From the IMG/VR virus record IMGVR_UViG_3300025887_000010, positions 1 to 64,000 of that record: DNA of 64,000 bases; one strand, written 5' to 3'. The notes beneath the pieces are model-generated. The model saw only the letters and a program-made list of their open reading frames with translations. It had not been told where the DNA came from and ran no database searches. The position numbers and the translations under genes were made by a program. How positions within the stretch are numbered: the stretch's first letter is position 1; each line of letters starts with the position of its first letter. Below are positions 26,914-53,786 of the stretch, piece by piece. This DNA is from a virus.

Positions 26914-27509
26914 TACTTTGTCAACATCTTTGCAAAGAATTTGGCGTATCTTTCAAGGATCAGATCGCACAGTGTCGGAACTTCCTCTCTGATTTGCCAA
27001 TTCGTGTTATCGACACCGAAGTCACACTTCATCGAAAGAGCCTCGATGTGCTTCTCAGATTCATGGACTTCGCCTTCAGGTGTTGTCTTCTCATTCGCAA
27101 CGTGAACGAGACAGCCACCAGCATCAAGGATTTTGTCGGCTTCGTTGTGGAAACGTATTCCATCGACCATAAAGACCTTTGCATCGCGAGTCTCCATTGA
27201 CGAAATGCTTCGGTCTATCCAAAGATCGTTATGGATCATGTCGCGACCCCACTCTGTGCCGAGAGTTGTCATCAGTTGACGAGAAGTCTTTCCACCAAAA
27301 TCGTGGAGAGTGTGATCACGCATACGATTGTCATAGACGTTTCCACGAGGAACTCCGAGTGCGATTAGCATGTCATAGATCGGCTGTGAGAAGGAAGCTT
27401 TGTCCACACAATTTGGAAAAGATCGGTGTATTTCGTCGGTGAGAAGTCGTGCGGTCGAGCTTTTGCCAGAGTCTTTGTGGCCAACAAAGCCGATAATCAG
27501 TTTCGCCAT
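26913..27509 (-). CDS. Deoxynucleoside monophosphate kinase
   Basis: P-loop GHKDSGKSSTARLL (residues 10-23), GGKTSRQLMTTLGTEWGRDMI and VDGIRFHNEAD are typical of phage dNMP kinases of the T4 gp1 type. T4 gp1 phosphorylates hydroxymethyl-dCMP as well as dTMP and dGMP, so this enzyme may feed the hydroxymethylcytosine pathway started by 47044. 198 aa. Confidence 0.85.
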   Translation of the reverse strand: MAKLIIGFVGHKDSGKSSTARLLTDEIHRSFPNCVDKASFSQPIYDMLIALGVPRGNVYDNRMRDHTLHDFGGKTSRQLMTTLGTEWGRDMIHNDLWIDRSISSMETRDAKVFMVDGIRFHNEADKILDAGGCLVHVANEKTTPEGEVHESEKHIEALSMKCDFGVDNTNWQIREEVPTLCDLILERYAKFFAKMLTK

Positions 27510-38517: not shown

Positions 38518-39675
38518 TCAGAAAAGATCGAGAGGGGCGGCAGGAACCTTTGATTTCGAGAGGACTTTCCAGAACTCATCGTACCATGAGTCTTCAGAGA
38601 AGTGCTTGCGTGCAGACTCAGCGATAGACTTTCTGTCATCAAACGATAGTGAGTTGACATATACGAGCTTGATCTTCAGGTCAAGTACCCACTCAGGATC
38701 ATCATATGCGACAGGTTTGACACCAAGGTCCGTCACCTGGTTGATGTAGTGATCGGCAGCATGAGTTTGACCTGCCTTGTCAACGAACGTGATCGGTATT
38801 CCACCAAATAGCAGTGTCTCGATTGCAATCAAACCAAGCGACTCATCGGGTCGAGCGACCAAACATGTCGAGCATTTCTGATACTCGAGCAGAAGCTGAT
38901 CTCTCGTTTCATTGTGATGAAGAACGGTGTTCTCAGATTTGTCGAGAGTCTTGATGATGTTCGGGAAGTCTGCACCGGAGACGTATGCGTCAAATTCGAT
39001 TCCAGCCTTTGCAATCTTTCCGAAATTCTTCTGTGGGTGGCATCGACCGACCATCAACGTTTTGCCTTCATTCGGCACGACATCCATTTCCCAAATCTTC
39101 GGATCCATTGTCGTGTAGACGTCAGCATCGTCAGAAATATAAGTGTGTGGCGGAGGATTGTCCATCGTATCAGAGAACTCGAAATGCTTTGCGCGAATCC
39201 ATGGTGAAGCATAGACTCGGCCACCATTCTCTGTGATGGTCATGCAATTCCTGACGATGCCCTGCAGGAACATCGGACTTGGTATCCAATCTGGGATCAT
39301 ATGGGTCGTTGGAATGAACTTCGAAATGGCAGCTGGAACTGTAGTCGTTGAAGCATTCGACCAACAGAAATCAGGATTGATGATCTTCGCCTGATCAATG
39401 TAGGCCTTTCCGACCCTTCGAGACATGGCGACTGCTTCCTTTGGTCCATGAAGTTCCAACACTTCGTCTCGACTCAACTCACTAACAGAGTGGAATGTCG
39501 CATATTCCAGGAAGACTGGATCAATCTTGCCAGTGCACAGAACGTGAACGTCAATTCCCTTCTTCTTAAGGATTTTGATCCACGAATGCTGACGAGCTTC
39601 GATGCCGTTGCGAGGCTTTCGGTGATCCTTGAACGCACCACCAGTGATGTGAGTCGAGACGATAAGGATTTTCAT
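38518..39675 (-). CDS. GT-B (GT4-like) glycosyltransferase
   Basis: Start at 39675 overlaps the MazG-like stop (ATGA). Rossmann start MKILIVSTHITGGAF, then the donor-site half with LMVGRCHPQKNFGKI, ARPDESLGLIAIETLLFGGIP and later DDPEWVLDLKIK, as in GT4-type enzymes. 385 aa. A sugar acceptor is not evident; with GalU/GalE/Glf and a dCMP hydroxymethylase present, modified DNA bases are one candidate, virion or host glycan the other. Confidence 0.7.
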   Translation of the reverse strand: MKILIVSTHITGGAFKDHRKPRNGIEARQHSWIKILKKKGIDVHVLCTGKIDPVFLEYATFHSVSELSRDEVLELHGPKEAVAMSRRVGKAYIDQAKIINPDFCWSNASTTTVPAAISKFIPTTHMIPDWIPSPMFLQGIVRNCMTITENGGRVYASPWIRAKHFEFSDTMDNPPPHTYISDDADVYTTMDPKIWEMDVVPNEGKTLMVGRCHPQKNFGKIAKAGIEFDAYVSGADFPNIIKTLDKSENTVLHHNETRDQLLLEYQKCSTCLVARPDESLGLIAIETLLFGGIPITFVDKAGQTHAADHYINQVTDLGVKPVAYDDPEWVLDLKIKLVYVNSLSFDDRKSIAESARKHFSEDSWYDEFWKVLSKSKVPAAPLDLF

Positions 39676-40100
39676 GCACAAATGCCTTTCAGCATTTTGG
39701 AGTCAATAACGTACGACGAAAGATCGGGTGCTTTCCAACCTTCAGGCTTGATGGCATCAGGAAGGCCGAGAGGATTTGGACGACCAGGTTTGACACCAAT
39801 CTCCTTTTCCATATTGGCATCGTGAACCTCGATGAAAGCCCCAAGTGACATATCAGTGCCGATCAGAATGTTGAGAGTTCCGACGTTGAAATATAGACCA
39901 TCGATGAGTGCATCAACAATCTCGGCTGCATCTTTATCTGCGATTGCATTCTTCAGTTCAGTAAGCTCTTCTTCCATCATACGAACACGAAGTTCAATGA
40001 AAGCTTTAAGCTTCTCAGGGTCACTTGCGATCTCGTCGTAGCGGTTAACGTGACCCATCTTTTCATGGAATTCTTCCACTATGTCGAAAATGTTCATCAT
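39672..40100 (-). CDS. MazG-like nucleotide pyrophosphohydrolase
   Basis: All-alpha NTP pyrophosphohydrolase pattern: IVEEFHEKMGH, ELRVRMMEEELTELKNAIADKD, AEIVDALIDGLYFNVGT (EExxE then ExxD-type metal ligands). It could hydrolyse dCTP or dUTP, the role of T4 gp56 in hydroxymethylcytosine phages, though substrate is not shown. 142 aa. Coupled to the glycosyltransferase. Confidence 0.75.
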   Translation of the reverse strand: MMNIFDIVEEFHEKMGHVNRYDEIASDPEKLKAFIELRVRMMEEELTELKNAIADKDAAEIVDALIDGLYFNVGTLNILIGTDMSLGAFIEVHDANMEKEIGVKPGRPNPLGLPDAIKPEGWKAPDLSSYVIDSKMLKGICA

Positions 40101-41289: not shown

Positions 41290-41752
41290 CAGTTTTTGGA
41301 TGAGGAATACGATGAGGATACGGTTTTGGTGGACACATGAAGTACGAGACATTCTCTTCGAAGTTCCGATTGTGTTGAATCATCCAATCTTCTTGACCTT
41401 TCTCCTTGAGGTGCTTGTTGATATCAGAGATCATCATACTGACGGTGCTCAGATCAGAACCGGACTCGAAAAGGGTGTCGTAGAACATGTTCGACCACAT
41501 CACATCTTTGCAACGACCATCAGGTGCGCACAACCAAAGATGTGAAAAGAGTCGGCGTTTGCGAATGACCTTCATTGAAATTCTACTATTTTTCGGAATG
41601 CCCATACCAAAGTTCGGATCGATTCCGATATTTATCAGCGCCATTTTGGTATGTTCGCTCATTTCGAGATGATACTCTAGAAGATTGAGAGCGTAATCCA
41701 CCTTCATCAGATCGTTTGGTAACTTGTTGATTTCGTCTTCGTACGGTCTCAT
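41261..41752 (-). CDS. Hypothetical 163-aa protein
   Basis: MRPYEDEINKLPNDLMKVDYAL, later FSHLWLCAPDGRCKDVMWSNMF and CPPKPYPHRIPHPKTV. Coupled by ATGA to the mutase upstream. No family recognised. Confidence 0.65.
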   Translation of the reverse strand: MRPYEDEINKLPNDLMKVDYALNLLEYHLEMSEHTKMALINIGIDPNFGMGIPKNSRISMKVIRKRRLFSHLWLCAPDGRCKDVMWSNMFYDTLFESGSDLSTVSMMISDINKHLKEKGQEDWMIQHNRNFEENVSYFMCPPKPYPHRIPHPKTVVQDEQDVI

Positions 41753-42786
41753 TTGAAGTCCTCTGCTGCTCGCATTGCTGAATTGACAGCTTGATCCATA
41801 TCTAAATAGGCATAAAGACCAAGGCGACCAATGAAGGTTATCGAGTATGGCCGCGCCATCTTCTTGTATTTTTCGTAGAGCTTACGATTCTCTCCGTCCA
41901 CATCTTTGACAGGATAGAATTTGCGATCACCATTTTCTTCAGCAGCACATGGCTCTTCCCACATTACGGCAGATGTTTCGGACGATCCATAGCTATTCGG
42001 AAGCTTCGACCACTCTGTGATCCGTGTGTATGGGCCAGTGTTAGTGAAGTTCACTGTTGCAGCCTGGAGAACATTCTCGAGTGGGAGTGTTGCATGATGG
42101 AACTTGAGAGAACGATACGGAAGGTGTCCATGGATGTAGTTGAAATACTCATCGATAGGCATCGAATTGAAAATCCAGTCCGCACTTGCGATGAAATCAC
42201 CACCGTATCCAGTTTTACCAAACTCCATAAAGTCGCAACCTGTCATAACATTGATGTTCTCATGATCGAGCATGTTTTCAACCATTTTGGTGTATCCATC
42301 CTTAGGAAGCACCTGAATGTCGTCGTTTGGGAAGTACAGCTCATTCATATCGTCACGAATGGGAACACGATTCATGATGCTCGGACTCACCCTTTCAAGT
42401 GACATTCCCCACATCTTCTCGGTGTAAGGACGGAAGAAGATGTCGATAACGTTTTCTTCGCCGACGATTTCTTTCGTTTCCTTGTTCACAGGAAGCGTGA
42501 CAAGACGTCCATCTTCAAGAAGAGCTTTGACCTTGTGCTCATATTTCACCCATTCCGTGAATCGGCTCAGAAACTCGAAGACTTTGACGTTGTTCGTGTG
42601 GAACAGGTGAGGACCATATTTGTGGATTCGATGTCCGTCATCGATCACATAATCAAAAGCGTTGCCGGCAACATGGTCACTCTTCTCCATGACGACGATT
42701 TTGTGTCCCTTTTCAGCGAGAAGACGAGCAACTGTTGATCCTGAAAGTCCTGCTCCGACGACAATGAATTTGCATTTTTTGCTCAT
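41749..42786 (-). CDS. glf: UDP-galactopyranose mutase Glf
   Basis: Converts UDP-galactopyranose to UDP-galactofuranose with FAD. N-terminal dinucleotide motif FIVVGAGLSGSTVARLL, then VVMEKSDHVAGNAFDYVID, HKYGPHLFHTNNVKVFEF, PYTEKMWGMSLERV, ITEWSKLP and FIGRLGLYAYLDMDQAV. 345 aa, slightly shorter than the bacterial 370-380. Its start overlaps the GT-B-like gene, suggesting the transferase uses its product. Galactofuranose enzymes are rare in phages. Confidence 0.9.
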   Translation of the reverse strand: MSKKCKFIVVGAGLSGSTVARLLAEKGHKIVVMEKSDHVAGNAFDYVIDDGHRIHKYGPHLFHTNNVKVFEFLSRFTEWVKYEHKVKALLEDGRLVTLPVNKETKEIVGEENVIDIFFRPYTEKMWGMSLERVSPSIMNRVPIRDDMNELYFPNDDIQVLPKDGYTKMVENMLDHENINVMTGCDFMEFGKTGYGGDFIASADWIFNSMPIDEYFNYIHGHLPYRSLKFHHATLPLENVLQAATVNFTNTGPYTRITEWSKLPNSYGSSETSAVMWEEPCAAEENGDRKFYPVKDVDGENRKLYEKYKKMARPYSITFIGRLGLYAYLDMDQAVNSAMRAAEDFK

Positions 42787-46799: not shown

Positions 46800-47044
46800 G
46801 ATATGTCCAGTTCTATGTGAGTGGATTTCGATTGCTTGAGCAAGTTGTTCTTTCTGGCTTCAGCAGAAACCCGTTCGATGAATGTTTGGGAGAACTTCAC
46901 CGTTTTGTGAATTTCCTCGTAATCTACATCGTGTTGCTCGCAGTAGTCCACAGCAGCATCAAAGAGTGAGTCGAACTCATTATCCGAGAAGTGCTGTAAG
47001 ATTTTCTGCTCGAAGTCAGATACGGTTTTTGGTGATGCACCCAT
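46796..47044 (-). CDS. 33: Late transcription co-activator gp33-like
   Basis: Short helical protein: FDSLFDAAVDYCEQHDVDYEEI, then TFIERVSAEARKNNLLKQS and a final hydrophobic-acidic LDIS. This pattern fits T4-type gp33 (T4: MSYLEATTAFLEE..., EAIDENLLRPS), which links gp55-polymerase to the clamp. 82 aa against 112 in T4. Start overlaps the hydroxymethylase stop (TAATG). Identity rests on the C-terminal pattern. Confidence 0.65.
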   Translation of the reverse strand: MGASPKTVSDFEQKILQHFSDNEFDSLFDAAVDYCEQHDVDYEEIHKTVKFSQTFIERVSAEARKNNLLKQSKSTHIELDIS

Positions 47045-47727
47045 TACGAGGGATCAGGAATGAGATTGAAGTTGCGCTCATAGAAGTGCATGTTCTGCAC
47101 TTGCCAGTGAAGTGTACCGATCTCTAGATCGAAGTCAAAAAGTGTGTGTGCATTCAAATCACAGACAAGCATGCTCATGACATGTATCTGCCATGCACGA
47201 TCATTTCGATATCCAGCCCAGGCATCGTTCGAACGCATTTGAACTACAGCATGAAGCTTACCATCACGAATCTGGTAGGAAACAGCATTGGTGCAGATAA
47301 AGTCAGACATACCGTTGTGAGCATACTCGACCCAAATAGATGGACGGTTGTAGATCATGACGGCTCGACGTGAACTCGGATTTTTCGCAAGTTCCTCTAA
47401 AACTTTGGCGTATTGATGATGGTATAACGGCGAAAAGATCAGCAATCCGTAATTGGAGTTGATGAGACCGTCACTGGATGAGATGTCTTGCCAGATTTTT
47501 GGAACGATGTCGTAATATCTACCGATATCGTTAACAGAACGACTCATCGATTCGTACCAATCGATTTCGGCATCGATGTATTTCGTGTTAAGATCACCGA
47601 ATATGGTTGCTTCATCAGCTTCAAACGATGCTCCGAGGATTTCGATTACGTTCGTTCCACCGAGATTGACGATGTCACCAGCAGCTTTCTTCTCGATGAA
47701 TAGGTTACGGATATCTTGTACGTTCAT
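47044..47727 (-). CDS. 42: dCMP hydroxymethylase, gp42-like
   Basis: Makes hydroxymethyl-dCMP from dCMP and methylene-tetrahydrofolate. Strong similarity to T4 gp42: NVIEILGASFEADEATIFGDLN, PKIWQDISSSDGLINSNYG, SSRRAVMIYNRPS, GMSDFICTNAVSYQIRDGK, RSNDAWAGYRNDRAWQ. Catalytic Cys145 (T4 Cys148) and Asp176 (T4 Asp179, the residue that selects cytosine over uracil) are in place. 227 aa against 246. Shows that phage DNA probably carries 5-hydroxymethylcytosine. Confidence 0.9.
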   Translation of the reverse strand: MNVQDIRNLFIEKKAAGDIVNLGGTNVIEILGASFEADEATIFGDLNTKYIDAEIDWYESMSRSVNDIGRYYDIVPKIWQDISSSDGLINSNYGLLIFSPLYHHQYAKVLEELAKNPSSRRAVMIYNRPSIWVEYAHNGMSDFICTNAVSYQIRDGKLHAVVQMRSNDAWAGYRNDRAWQIHVMSMLVCDLNAHTLFDFDLEIGTLHWQVQNMHFYERNFNLIPDPS

Positions 47728-48116: not shown

Positions 48117-49313
48117 TCACATTTCTCCTTTGTCAAACCGCATTTTCAAGAATTCTGGGTGGCGAAGACGACCGGCTGGAGTGTACTCCATGAATTCCGC
48201 TTCGCATTCTTCACCGATCAACTGATCACGAATTTCCCAGAGATATTCGCGTTGCCTATCGGAAAAGCCTCCGCCAATTTTCGTTGTGGTGCCTTTCTGG
48301 GTCTTAACTATCAACGCACCAAGCTTGCCTTTGAGGCGACCTCGTCCTTCATGAAATCCGGTGACTTCGAAAGAGTCTTCAACAAGAGGCTTGACCTTCA
48401 TCCAGTCGAGTGTGCGCTTGAATGAGTACTTGCCCTTCTTCTTCTTGAGGATTGCACCTTCATGACCGGCTTTGCGATACCGATTGTAGGCAGCTTCAGC
48501 TTCTTCGAGAGAGTTCACAATCTCATGTTCGGCGAGTGGAGTCACTAAGATCATTGATTTCAGAGCTGCATATCGTTCTTCGTATTCGCGAGTGCTTTTG
48601 CGAGACTTGAATTCTTCCATTGTGATTGCATCGAAGAGTTTCAGGCTAGAAAGGACTGCGTCTGAAGTGCTGCGATGGATAACACCAACTGAAAGGTTGA
48701 AGTCACCACCATCAGTGATTGCTTCACCATCGAAGACCATGTTGGGATACGCAGAAAGTTCATTGAGAATTTCCGGATCGATATTGTAGAGAGGCTTGCC
48801 GTTTCTCGAAAGAGTTTCAGTGGCTCCATGTGCATCTACAAGAACGACACAGCGAACTCCATCGAATTTCGGCTGAGCGTAACAAGGGAATTCAGTTTTG
48901 GATTTCGTGTAGGACCCAGCCAATTGAAGGCTAAAGGTCTTGTACGCGTCTTTGTAGACGGTACGGAACGATTTACCACCAATTCCGAGTTGGTATGACT
49001 GAAATCGCCCAAGAATCGAGTTGGTCACATTCAGCTGCAAGTCGGAGAAATCTTCGCAGTTATTGCGAAGCCATTTGAAGTCGGACTCTCCCAAGGCCGT
49101 GAGGATTTGTTCATCGGTGATGGCAGATTCGACATTTGGAAGGGTTGGGCGAAGTTTTGAGACTCCGAAGTTGTGGAATGGATCAAATGACCAGGTGATG
49201 ACTTGCACGGTGTGTGCATCAATCTCACGAAGAGCTTCAATTTTTGCATTGGTTCCTTTTGTGGAACCAAGCATTGATAGATCGCGATGGATAAGTTCGA
49301 ATGGATTCATCAT
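48117..49313 (-). CDS. 30: ATP-dependent DNA ligase, gp30-like
   Basis: Seals nicks in Okazaki fragments. Adenylation motif YAQPKFDGVRC (Lys149), PNMVFDGEAITDGGDF, GHEGAILKKKKGKY and LDWMKVKPL are present. 398 aa, below T4 (487) but typical of phage ligases. AAAGGAC precedes the start, promoter 49336-49365 behind. First gene of a seven-gene operon down to 45117. Confidence 0.92.
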   Translation of the reverse strand: MMNPFELIHRDLSMLGSTKGTNAKIEALREIDAHTVQVITWSFDPFHNFGVSKLRPTLPNVESAITDEQILTALGESDFKWLRNNCEDFSDLQLNVTNSILGRFQSYQLGIGGKSFRTVYKDAYKTFSLQLAGSYTKSKTEFPCYAQPKFDGVRCVVLVDAHGATETLSRNGKPLYNIDPEILNELSAYPNMVFDGEAITDGGDFNLSVGVIHRSTSDAVLSSLKLFDAITMEEFKSRKSTREYEERYAALKSMILVTPLAEHEIVNSLEEAEAAYNRYRKAGHEGAILKKKKGKYSFKRTLDWMKVKPLVEDSFEVTGFHEGRGRLKGKLGALIVKTQKGTTTKIGGGFSDRQREYLWEIRDQLIGEECEAEFMEYTPAGRLRHPEFLKMRFDKGEM

Positions 49314-49636: not shown

Positions 49637-50338
49637 CTACTCAGAAGATTGCTTCTTGAGGATAAGTTTCAAAATTTGATCGACAGTCTGGACACTTTCG
49701 ACCTCGTGATCGTCGATTTCAAGTTCGAAATCTTCCTCGATGAGTATATGGATTTCGACACAATCCAAACTGTCAGCTCCCAAATCAGTGTGGATGTCTG
49801 AATTGGGGTGAACGAGATCGATATCAACCATGAGATGGCTTGCGAGAATACTTTTGATACGGGTAAGAAGACTGTCGTTTTCGACTTCCTTCACTGGTTT
49901 ATCATCAGTGATTGTCATCGGGATGATCGACGATTCACGATCTCCGAAAATATATAGGTTTGGGTTCTTCCAGCGAGCTTCGAATTCCTCGTTCGGAATG
50001 TAGAAGATGCGATCAATCCCAGCTTTGAATAGCTTGGAGATGCATCCTCCACATGGGAAACCAGTTACGTAGGCATCACATCCTTCGACACGAGTACCGA
50101 ATTGAGCAGCATTCAGGAGTGCATTCTCTTCAGCGTGGATTGAAAAGACAAGACGATCGTCGCGTTGTAGATTTTCAACTGCGTCATCATCGATACCTGG
50201 ACAATTTCCATTCCATCCAGTAGAGATGATGTGGTGTGACTTGGAGGCAATAACACATCCAACATGAGCACCGTTATGTTTCGAATTTTGCGATGCAAGA
50301 GATGCAACACACATTGGGTAGGTTGTGATGCTCTTCAT
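49637..50338 (-). CDS. dCMP deaminase fused to an acyl carrier protein
   Basis: Residues 1-135: cytidine/deoxycytidylate deaminase zinc site, His68-Ala-Glu70 (SIHAEENALLNAA) and Cys96, Cys99 (FPCGGC). Residues 155-228: an acyl carrier protein with NSDIHTDLGADSLDCVEI, Ser190 in the DSL motif being the expected phosphopantetheine site, and helix ESVQTVDQILKLI. Both parts are in one frame of 233 aa. The deaminase would convert dCMP to dUMP for thyA; the ACP role is unknown. I know of no family with this architecture. Confidence 0.88.
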   Translation of the reverse strand: MKSITTYPMCVASLASQNSKHNGAHVGCVIASKSHHIISTGWNGNCPGIDDDAVENLQRDDRLVFSIHAEENALLNAAQFGTRVEGCDAYVTGFPCGGCISKLFKAGIDRIFYIPNEEFEARWKNPNLYIFGDRESSIIPMTITDDKPVKEVENDSLLTRIKSILASHLMVDIDLVHPNSDIHTDLGADSLDCVEIHILIEEDFELEIDDHEVESVQTVDQILKLILKKQSSE

Positions 50339-50538
50339 CAAACTTCCTCCATCCTTTCGGCCGCATTGATCGAATTCGTCACATCCTCGATGTGTTTATT
50401 CGCATCGTTGATCGCATTCTGAGCTTCCAAACCTGCAATTCCACAGCGAACGTCAGAGTGAATGAACGCCTGTGTGAGTGCATTGCGCAATTTCACAATG
50501 AGATCAAACTGTTCTTTCGATTGGACTTTTTTATTCAT
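50338..50538 (-). CDS. Hypothetical 66-aa helical protein
   Basis: Start at 50538 (MNKKVQSKEQFDLIVKLRN), AAAGGAAA upstream. Helical with GIAGLEAQNAINDANKH. Stop overlaps the deaminase-ACP start (TGATG). No family recognised. Confidence 0.65.
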   Translation of the reverse strand: MNKKVQSKEQFDLIVKLRNALTQAFIHSDVRCGIAGLEAQNAINDANKHIEDVTNSINAAERMEEV

Positions 50539-50573: not shown

Positions 50574-50603
50574 ATCATAACACAAAGCAAATGCGATGTA
50601 CAC
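50574..50603 (-). promoter_or_regulatory. Early promoter of the deaminase-ACP operon
   Basis: GTGTAC, 18-nt spacer, TATGAT. Confidence 0.75.
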
Positions 50604-50607
50604 ACAA

Positions 50608-50634
50608 AAATGGCGAGCACGAGGCTCGCCATTT
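50608..50634. terminator. Terminator A of a duplicated terminator-promoter module
   Basis: AAATGGCGAGC and GCTCGCCATTT, 11-bp stem, followed by TTTTT on the minus strand. It is part of an exact 36-bp repeat (50597-50632) also present at 50752-50787. Confidence 0.85.
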
Positions 50635-50728: not shown

Positions 50729-50758
50729 GATATATCACACTCTGTACGTCTTGTACAC
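50729..50758 (-). promoter_or_regulatory. Early promoter of the short RNA unit
   Basis: GTGTAC, 18-nt spacer, TATATC with TGA before it. Confidence 0.75.
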
Positions 50759-50764
50759 ACAAAA

Positions 50765-50787
50765 ATGGCGAGCACGAGGCTCGCCAT
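50765..50787. terminator. Terminator B of the duplicated module, ends gene 23
   Basis: ATGGCGAGC and GCTCGCCAT, 9-bp stem, with TTTTT on the minus strand, about 30 bp after the gene 23 stop. Confidence 0.85.
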
Positions 50788-52598: not shown

Positions 52599-53786
52599 TC
52601 AGCTTTCCATTGCTTCATCGATTGCACTGAAGAGGTCACCCTTGACTTCGCTCTTGAGACTGAAATTAGTGTCAGCGTTCTCGACAATGCGCTTCATGTA
52701 GTTGTCGTTTTCGGAGTCTTTCTCGGTGAAGAACTTGGTCTTCAACATGGTGGCCTTGCCTTTGAAGTCTTCAAACGAGCTGAAGTCGACCTCGTTGACA
52801 GATTCGACGAAGCGTTCCTTTACAGAGTCCGTCATGTCGTCAGAAGCATTCTCAACGAAGCGTTCAATCTTCAGCAGAAGAGCTTCTTTGCGAACGGTAT
52901 CCAACTTGGTAGAAAGCTCTTCGACGAAATCGGTCTTGTCCTTCAGATCAGACTGCAGTTCCTGAATTTTGGAGCTGTTTTCGGCCTTCATCTCGAAGTC
53001 GGTGTCTGAGAACAGAGTCTGAGTTTCCTCAAAGAGAGTCTCCAGTTTGGCAAGACGTGCCTTATCGACGATGACATCACCATGAGATTCGAAGAAGTCG
53101 TTTGTTGCACGTTCGACGTATGCAGAAACACGACGGTCAATTTCTTTCTCCTGGGCTTTCGCATTGGCTTCGTACTTTCGCTCCATTTTCGATAGAGCCT
53201 TTTCAGAAACGGCAACAGCGACTCGTGCGATCTCGGTCTTCAGAACAGCGACAAAGGCGGCAGAGCGTTCTTCATCAAGGTCGAGAGATTCGATGACCTT
53301 CTTGACGACAGCGTTGTCGACCACGGAGATTGGAGCAGACTCACCAAGAATTGGAGCTTCATCGTCTTCATCGCCTAACTCGTCATCTTCATCGCCCATT
53401 TCGTCGTCCTCATCACCCATTTCATCGATGAGTGGATCATCAAGACCGTCGATGGACTCTTTCTTCTTCTTCTCTTCGTAGTCCTTGTCGTCCTTGTCGT
53501 CCTTGTCGTCGTCCTTGTCGTCGTCCTTGTCGTCGTCCTTGTCGTCGTCCTTGTCGTCGTCCTTGTCGTCGTCCTTGTCGGACTCTTTCTTCTTCGCTTC
53601 CATCTTGGCGAAGATCGAACGAATCTTGTACGATTCGCCTTTTGTCAGCGTGGGAGCGTCATCAACGGATTCGTTAAGCAGTGCGAATCCCTTGTCGGCG
53701 TTCTCAGCAAAAGCGGTCGTGATCTCATTCAGTTTGCTTGGGTTTTTGCTTGCAAGGTCCTGCAAAGCTTTCAGAATTCTATCCAT
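52599..53786 (-). CDS. 22: Prohead core scaffold gp22-like with acidic repeat
   Basis: Core scaffold that shapes the prohead and is degraded by gp21. Position between 21 and 23, helical, very acidic and Lys-rich; FEDFKGKATMLKTKFF and SIRSLDLDEERSAAFVAVL-type helices fit. Residues about 75-110 are a low-complexity KDDD run encoded by 12-bp tandem repeats (53485-53580). 395 aa against 269 in T4. Identity is by position and composition; its start has no visible late box, so it follows 21. Confidence 0.78.
   Translation of the reverse strand: MDRILKALQDLASKNPSKLNEITTAFAENADKGFALLNESVDDAPTLTKGESYKIRSIFAKMEAKKKESDKDDDKDDDKDDDKDDDKDDDKDDDKDDKDDKDYEEKKKKESIDGLDDPLIDEMGDEDDEMGDEDDELGDEDDEAPILGESAPISVVDNAVVKKVIESLDLDEERSAAFVAVLKTEIARVAVAVSEKALSKMERKYEANAKAQEKEIDRRVSAYVERATNDFFESHGDVIVDKARLAKLETLFEETQTLFSDTDFEMKAENSSKIQELQSDLKDKTDFVEELSTKLDTVRKEALLLKIERFVENASDDMTDSVKERFVESVNEVDFSSFEDFKGKATMLKTKFFTEKDSENDNYMKRIVENADTNFSLKSEVKGDLFSAIDEAMES
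53485..53580. repeat. 12-bp tandem repeat inside gene 22 (KDDD)
   Basis: TCGTCGTCCTTG repeats head to tail at least six times, encoding KDDD on the minus strand. It is in frame and does not break gene 22. Confidence 0.9.

Follow-up and report, generated by a model that had tools for sequence, protein, structure and literature searches.

Can a phage dCMP deaminase and an acyl carrier protein (ACP) share a single polypeptide and, if they do, what would an acyl carrier contribute to an enzyme of nucleotide supply? Both questions are raised by one gene in the 64,000-nt stretch of DNA analysed here (the window), which is part of a 126,862-base virus record. No paper describing a deaminase-ACP fusion was found in our literature search, in keeping with the first-pass annotation's impression that such a chain is undescribed. 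As far as the literature searched shows, it would be the first reported case of one chain combining nucleotide deamination with acyl carriage.

One frame, two domains

The coordinates first given for the gene were right (Table 1); its strand, which had been left unstated, is the minus strand. An ATG at 50338 opens a frame of 233 codons that closes with a TAG at 49639-49637 and contains no internal stop. Seven nt 5' of this ATG there is a ribosome site, GGAGG; the ATG itself overlaps, as TGATG, the stop of a small upstream ORF for which Pfam and PHROG returned no convincing family match. The operon is dense, with this overlapping start and an adjoining downstream ORF, and it begins after a pair of hairpin terminators itself situated downstream of the major capsid gene. 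Both copies of the hairpin appear to be bidirectional. Internal starts that could yield a free ACP, at Met141 and Met170, were considered and rejected, as both are without a ribosome site.

Table 1. Coordinates of the fusion gene, its parts and selected features of the window.
Feature	Position	Strand	Basis
dCMP deaminase-ACP fusion gene, 233 aa	49637..50338	-	intact ORF, SD site, TGATG overlap, matches to two families each in Pfam and PHROG, ORF shared with contig L001
Predicted deaminase domain, residues 1-140; zinc site His68, Cys96, Cys99, catalytic Glu70	49919..50338	-	PF00383, sequence and fold matches, AlphaFold2 model
Low-confidence deaminase end and flexible linker, about residues 125-152	49883..49966	-	AlphaFold2 pLDDT
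Predicted type II ACP domain, residues 153-233; phosphopantetheine Ser190, codon 49769-49771	49640..49882	-	PF00550, PHROG 5934, AcpP identity, Foldseek
Small upstream ORF, same operon, 65 aa from its ATG	50338..50535	-	stop overlaps fusion-gene ATG
Sigma-70-like promoter candidate of operon, TGTACA-17-TATGAT, TG before -10	50574..50602	-	consensus match only
Hairpin terminator between gp23 and operon, with a near-identical second copy	50597..50634	.	36-bp copies at 50597-50632 and 50752-50787
T4 gp42-type dCMP hydroxymethylase	47044..47727	-	PDB 1b49, E 5.8e-60, hydroxymethylase RND motif
ATP-dependent DNA ligase, neighbour	48117..49313	-	Pfam, PHROG
UDP-galactopyranose mutase	41752-42786		
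Glycosyltransferase	38521-39681		
dNMP kinase	26916-27509		

A second contig (L001, 48,777 bases) carries the same open fusion frame. It and the window's record are separate assemblies with different end points, 99.96% identical over 9,929 bases with four single-base differences; H197R, in the ACP domain, is the sole difference between the two fusion proteins. An in-frame acidic DDDK-type repeat was noted in a gp22-like scaffold gene (window 53470-53585); L001 begins inside it, so that assemblies break there. That two genes were joined by a missing stop or in a chimeric contig is exceedingly unlikely, for while there is no third independent sequence of the fusion, L001 keeps the same ORF in spite of its SNPs and its own end point, the linker is open and in frame, the operon is tightly packed around the gene, and the G+C of both halves matches that of the window, with no foreign base composition evident in the ACP part. 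The one-chain join is real, and the in-frame fusion first described at this locus stands.

Alignments placed the zinc and catalytic residues, as well as the carrier serine, where the first-pass annotation had them. In the first half, dCMP_cyt_deam_1 (PF00383) covers residues 9-113 (E 1e-18; 67.5 bits against a curated cut-off of 25), the dCMP deaminase family PHROG 174 is matched at 4e-28, and the H[AC]E...PCxxC site is present, with H68 A69 E70 and P95 C96 C99 invariant among relatives. This half also matches the dCMP deaminases of S. mutans, human, T4 and S-TIM5 in both a PDB sequence search and Foldseek, and ACPs are among the PDB matches of the second half.

The second half had been called a canonical ACP, a description that profile, sequence and fold comparisons all sustain. 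PP-binding (PF00550) spans residues 160-226 (E 1.9e-8; 34.9 bits against a curated cut-off of 20.8), and PHROG 5934, an acyl carrier protein family, is matched at 1.1e-14. The NCBIfam models of stand-alone ACPs score below their cut-offs (TIGR00517, 59.8 against 70.45 bits; NF002148, 66.5 against 71), and on these scores the half belongs to the ACP superfamily as a fused domain and lies outside both stand-alone families. An ungapped alignment with E. coli AcpP gives 27 identical residues in 60, which by sequence comparison is far above chance. D35, S36, L37, D38, V40, E41, E47, E48, I54 and D56 of E. coli ACP, the positions at which AcpS and the fatty-acid enzymes recognise it, correspond to D189, S190, L191, D192, V194, E195, E201, E202, I208 and D210 here.

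An AlphaFold2 model built from a 43-sequence alignment (mean pLDDT 89, both domains confident) shows a deaminase fold that ends near residue 140 and, beyond a flexible segment, a four-helix ACP beginning at 149, in which Ser190, within a DSL motif, opens helix II (residues 190-204). Confidence falls in the linker, to a pLDDT of about 51-67 in blocks over residues 121-150 and below 50 at residues 144-148, and the pTM of 0.60 suggests two domains without a well-defined mutual position. The structure-based comparison proposed for the ACP part bore out its assignment, the predicted fold matching many ACP structures at an rmsd of 0.7-1.2 (Foldseek).

Phosphopantetheine would reasonably be expected to come from the host, whose AcpS would attach it to Ser190, since the acids by which AcpS and fatty-acid synthesis recognise an ACP are kept and no ACPS-family match occurs in the 126,862-base record. 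A host source had been suggested from the outset and remains the likely one; the record may be incomplete, in which case AcpS or partner genes may be missing from it.

The virus and the spread of the fusion

The virus is T4-like, with a gp23 capsid protein, a gp33 late coactivator, a gp45 clamp and gp32. Its nearest named relatives are the Pootjesviridae, phages of rhizobia, to whose capsid protein its own is 53% identical. Downstream of gp23 these relatives have a trypsin-like protease and a helicase in place of the deaminase-ACP operon, and no megablast-level DNA match links them to the virus. Judged by gene order around gp23 and by overall similarity, the virus does not appear to belong inside the family.

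Because the virus encodes a thymidylate synthase, DHFR, a dNMP kinase and the gp42-type hydroxymethylase, its deaminase fits an ordinary role in the path from dCMP to dUMP to dTMP. Working beside the hydroxymethylase, the deaminase half would, with high probability, turn dCMP into dUMP by normal catalysis and so feed the phage's own thymidylate synthase. The cytosine-related neighbourhood first described is there in large part, in the form of this hydroxymethylase, an FkbM methyltransferase (Pfam) and a glycosyltransferase about 11 kb from the fusion gene; for the DUF1599-like protein the match falls under the Pfam cut-off (23.3 against 25 bits). That a single T4-like virus encodes UDP-galactopyranose mutase, glycosyltransferase, dNMP kinase and the hydroxymethylase may point to galactofuranosyl-hmC DNA, and the mutase is also seen in T4-like Aeromonas phages and in Rhizobium phages.

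The closest deaminases are those of the Pootjesviridae (42-50% identical over about 115-130 residues). Scanning of six Pootjesviridae-type genomes and of Phage C48C1 gave no PP-binding (ACP) match anywhere, with positive controls. Related phages had been proposed as a place to look for the same fusion, whose absence from close relatives was to count against it, and the outcome is mixed: it is present in the near-identical L001, the only contig returned by a full-protein scan for close relatives, and absent from all more distant relatives seen. Capsid-protein scanning found no relatives with the same locus. A scan of IMG/VR with a deaminase alignment kept 80 loci, and none of the 51 ORFs read through carried an ACP at the C-terminus. 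No second deaminase-ACP protein occurred among 50,697 phage records, where tblastn to E 10 matched 3,436 records without reaching 80% query coverage in any of them; tblastn against plasmids likewise found no such protein. Scans for the fusion motif, which used a spacing of 80-90 residues and would miss other linker lengths, returned the known contig plus three chance or out-of-frame matches from viral contigs (His codons CAC and CAT) and six matches, none a true fusion, from genome contigs (CAC only). In a BFVD fold search no viral protein clearly matched both domains, the few unnamed matches of at least 220 columns having an rmsd of 11-17. The ACP part alone gave no tblastn match in phages at E 0.01, from which it follows that BLAST by itself lacks the sensitivity for a survey of phage ACPs.

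Each half belongs to a known domain family, and the combination is new as far as these searches reach. The lack of an ACP in Pootjesviridae-type relatives, together with the lack of any other deaminase-ACP protein, makes it probable that this lineage acquired the ACP.

Readings of the ACP half

Phage ACPs have been called rare (PMC7760394) and their function unclear (PMC5463345), and they are listed among auxiliary metabolic genes (PMC8224337, PMC11705849). Our ACP scan of viral contigs yielded 80 loci, mostly stand-alone genes and some fused. Two RIIB-like proteins carry an ACP, one at residues 108-182, where it separates the RIIB core from an N-terminal region (L097:3713-5068), the other at residues 361-410, after the core (L154:2900-4282); the opposite domain order suggests two separate RIIB-ACP fusions. 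In L150, L156 and Vibrio phage P018-4 an ACP is followed by other domains in one protein, which in the last of these is a 186-aa 'hypothetical protein' consisting of an ACP and a PHROG 8860 domain (L191:2995-3555). The L156 protein looks similar, with an ACP and PHROG 8860-type architecture. On this evidence the phage ACP behaves as a module that can be joined to different partners.

The sequences flanking the other viral-contig ACP loci showed no deaminase motif, and a cytidine or dCMP deaminase is missing from 20 of the 24 ACP-bearing viral records scanned, being a separate gene in the other four; both results argue against a general functional link between ACP and deaminase in phages. Stand-alone ACP genes of probable T4-like contigs (L102, L108-L111, L129, L131-L133, L138, L141, L142) adjoin putative neck/tail and terminase genes, identified from sequence only. 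Taken with the ACP found among the virion-associated proteins of Erwinia jumbo phages (PMC7760394), these neighbours make a late or virion role possible for phage ACPs.

The reading we favour, with confidence near the midpoint, is that a dCMP deaminase of the Pootjesviridae/T4 type gained a complete C-terminal type II ACP by way of a flexible linker, the ACP serving as an independent host-interaction module. In this view the ACP is a mobile add-on, to which host AcpS probably supplies the phosphopantetheine. Since ACP domains occur on unrelated phage proteins as well, the ACP half may be independent of the deaminase's chemistry and might, tentatively, tether host ACP partners or act as their decoy. 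ACP binds proteins of unrelated function, SpoT for example (PMC3340395).

A less eventful history is a minority prospect: a free-standing ACP gene, of phage or host, became joined to the deaminase gene by chance, so that the ACP would act like any stand-alone phage ACP and its fusion would be meaningless. It would accord with a single lineage, with the prevalence of stand-alone genes among the viral-contig ACPs and with the one protein change between the two contigs falling within the ACP, where H197R possibly reflects relaxed constraint. A recent, near-neutral fusion is possible, and because the fusion occurs in one lineage only, selection on it cannot be measured. Set against a chance passenger are the retention of every ACP signature and recognition residue and the repeated ACP fusions in phages, which suggest a benefit of tethering.

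dCMP deaminases are allosteric enzymes, and the S. mutans enzyme has a structure with dTTP (PDB 5c2o). Phosphopantetheinylation or acylation of the ACP might therefore be imagined to switch or localise the deaminase in cis, coupling nucleotide supply to host CoA and fatty-acid status or to the membrane. The presence of both domains in one chain and the intact ACP surface are in favour of this; however, the long, low-confidence linker and the pTM offer no predicted domain interface, and the fusion is found in no relative, leaving no sign of a conserved coupling, so that we think such regulation unlikely. We would give no better prospects to a broader version of the host-interaction idea, in which fused ACPs would be a general phage tag that plugs nucleotide enzymes, RIIB and other proteins into host ACP partners or membrane-linked fatty-acid machinery, the deaminase being placed or regulated by host acyl status.

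Least supported among the mechanisms, and in our judgement improbable, is the role in cytosine hypermodification suggested by the first-pass annotation, with the ACP carrying an acyl or aminoacyl group destined for the modified base: the hydroxymethylase, dNMP kinase, glycosyltransferase, mutase and FkbM methyltransferase do make glycosylated hmC DNA plausible, but these genes account for a sugar on hmC with no need of an acyl carrier. A scan of roughly 30 window proteins turned up no acyl-ligase, acyltransferase, ketosynthase or further enzyme that uses an ACP. The deaminase, whose substrate is free dCMP, would draw it away from hmC synthesis, and most ACP-bearing records do without a deaminase.

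The fusion is less dramatic than first proposed, as it is confined to one lineage and its function is not readable from sequence. The wider pattern of phage ACP fusions adds interest. With an ACP covalently linked to an enzyme that is well understood, and with the RIIB-ACP fusions besides, there would be a direct handle on the host partner of phage ACPs.

Likeness to known systems

Among its closest counterparts, the deaminases of Agrobacterium phage Atu_ph04, Rhizobium phages AF3 and P10VF and Sinorhizobium phage phiM9, all Pootjesviridae, have the same deaminase domain, whereas their C-terminal tail is different or absent and carries no ACP. T4 cd (1vq2) and the dCMP deaminase of cyanophage S-TIM5 (4p9c) share the fold and the zinc and catalytic residues of the fusion but, unlike it, are single-domain enzymes without a carrier protein. 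With E. coli AcpP and the phage ACPs of PHROG 5934 the fusion has in common the DSL motif, the recognition acids and the four-helix fold; a type II ACP is normally free and about 80 aa long, while here it forms the C-terminal third of an enzyme. The RIIB-ACP proteins and the ACP-DUF protein of Vibrio phage P018-4 resemble the fusion in having an ACP in frame with another phage protein, and differ from it in the partner: a deaminase here, RIIB (a lysis inhibitor) or a domain of unknown kind there.
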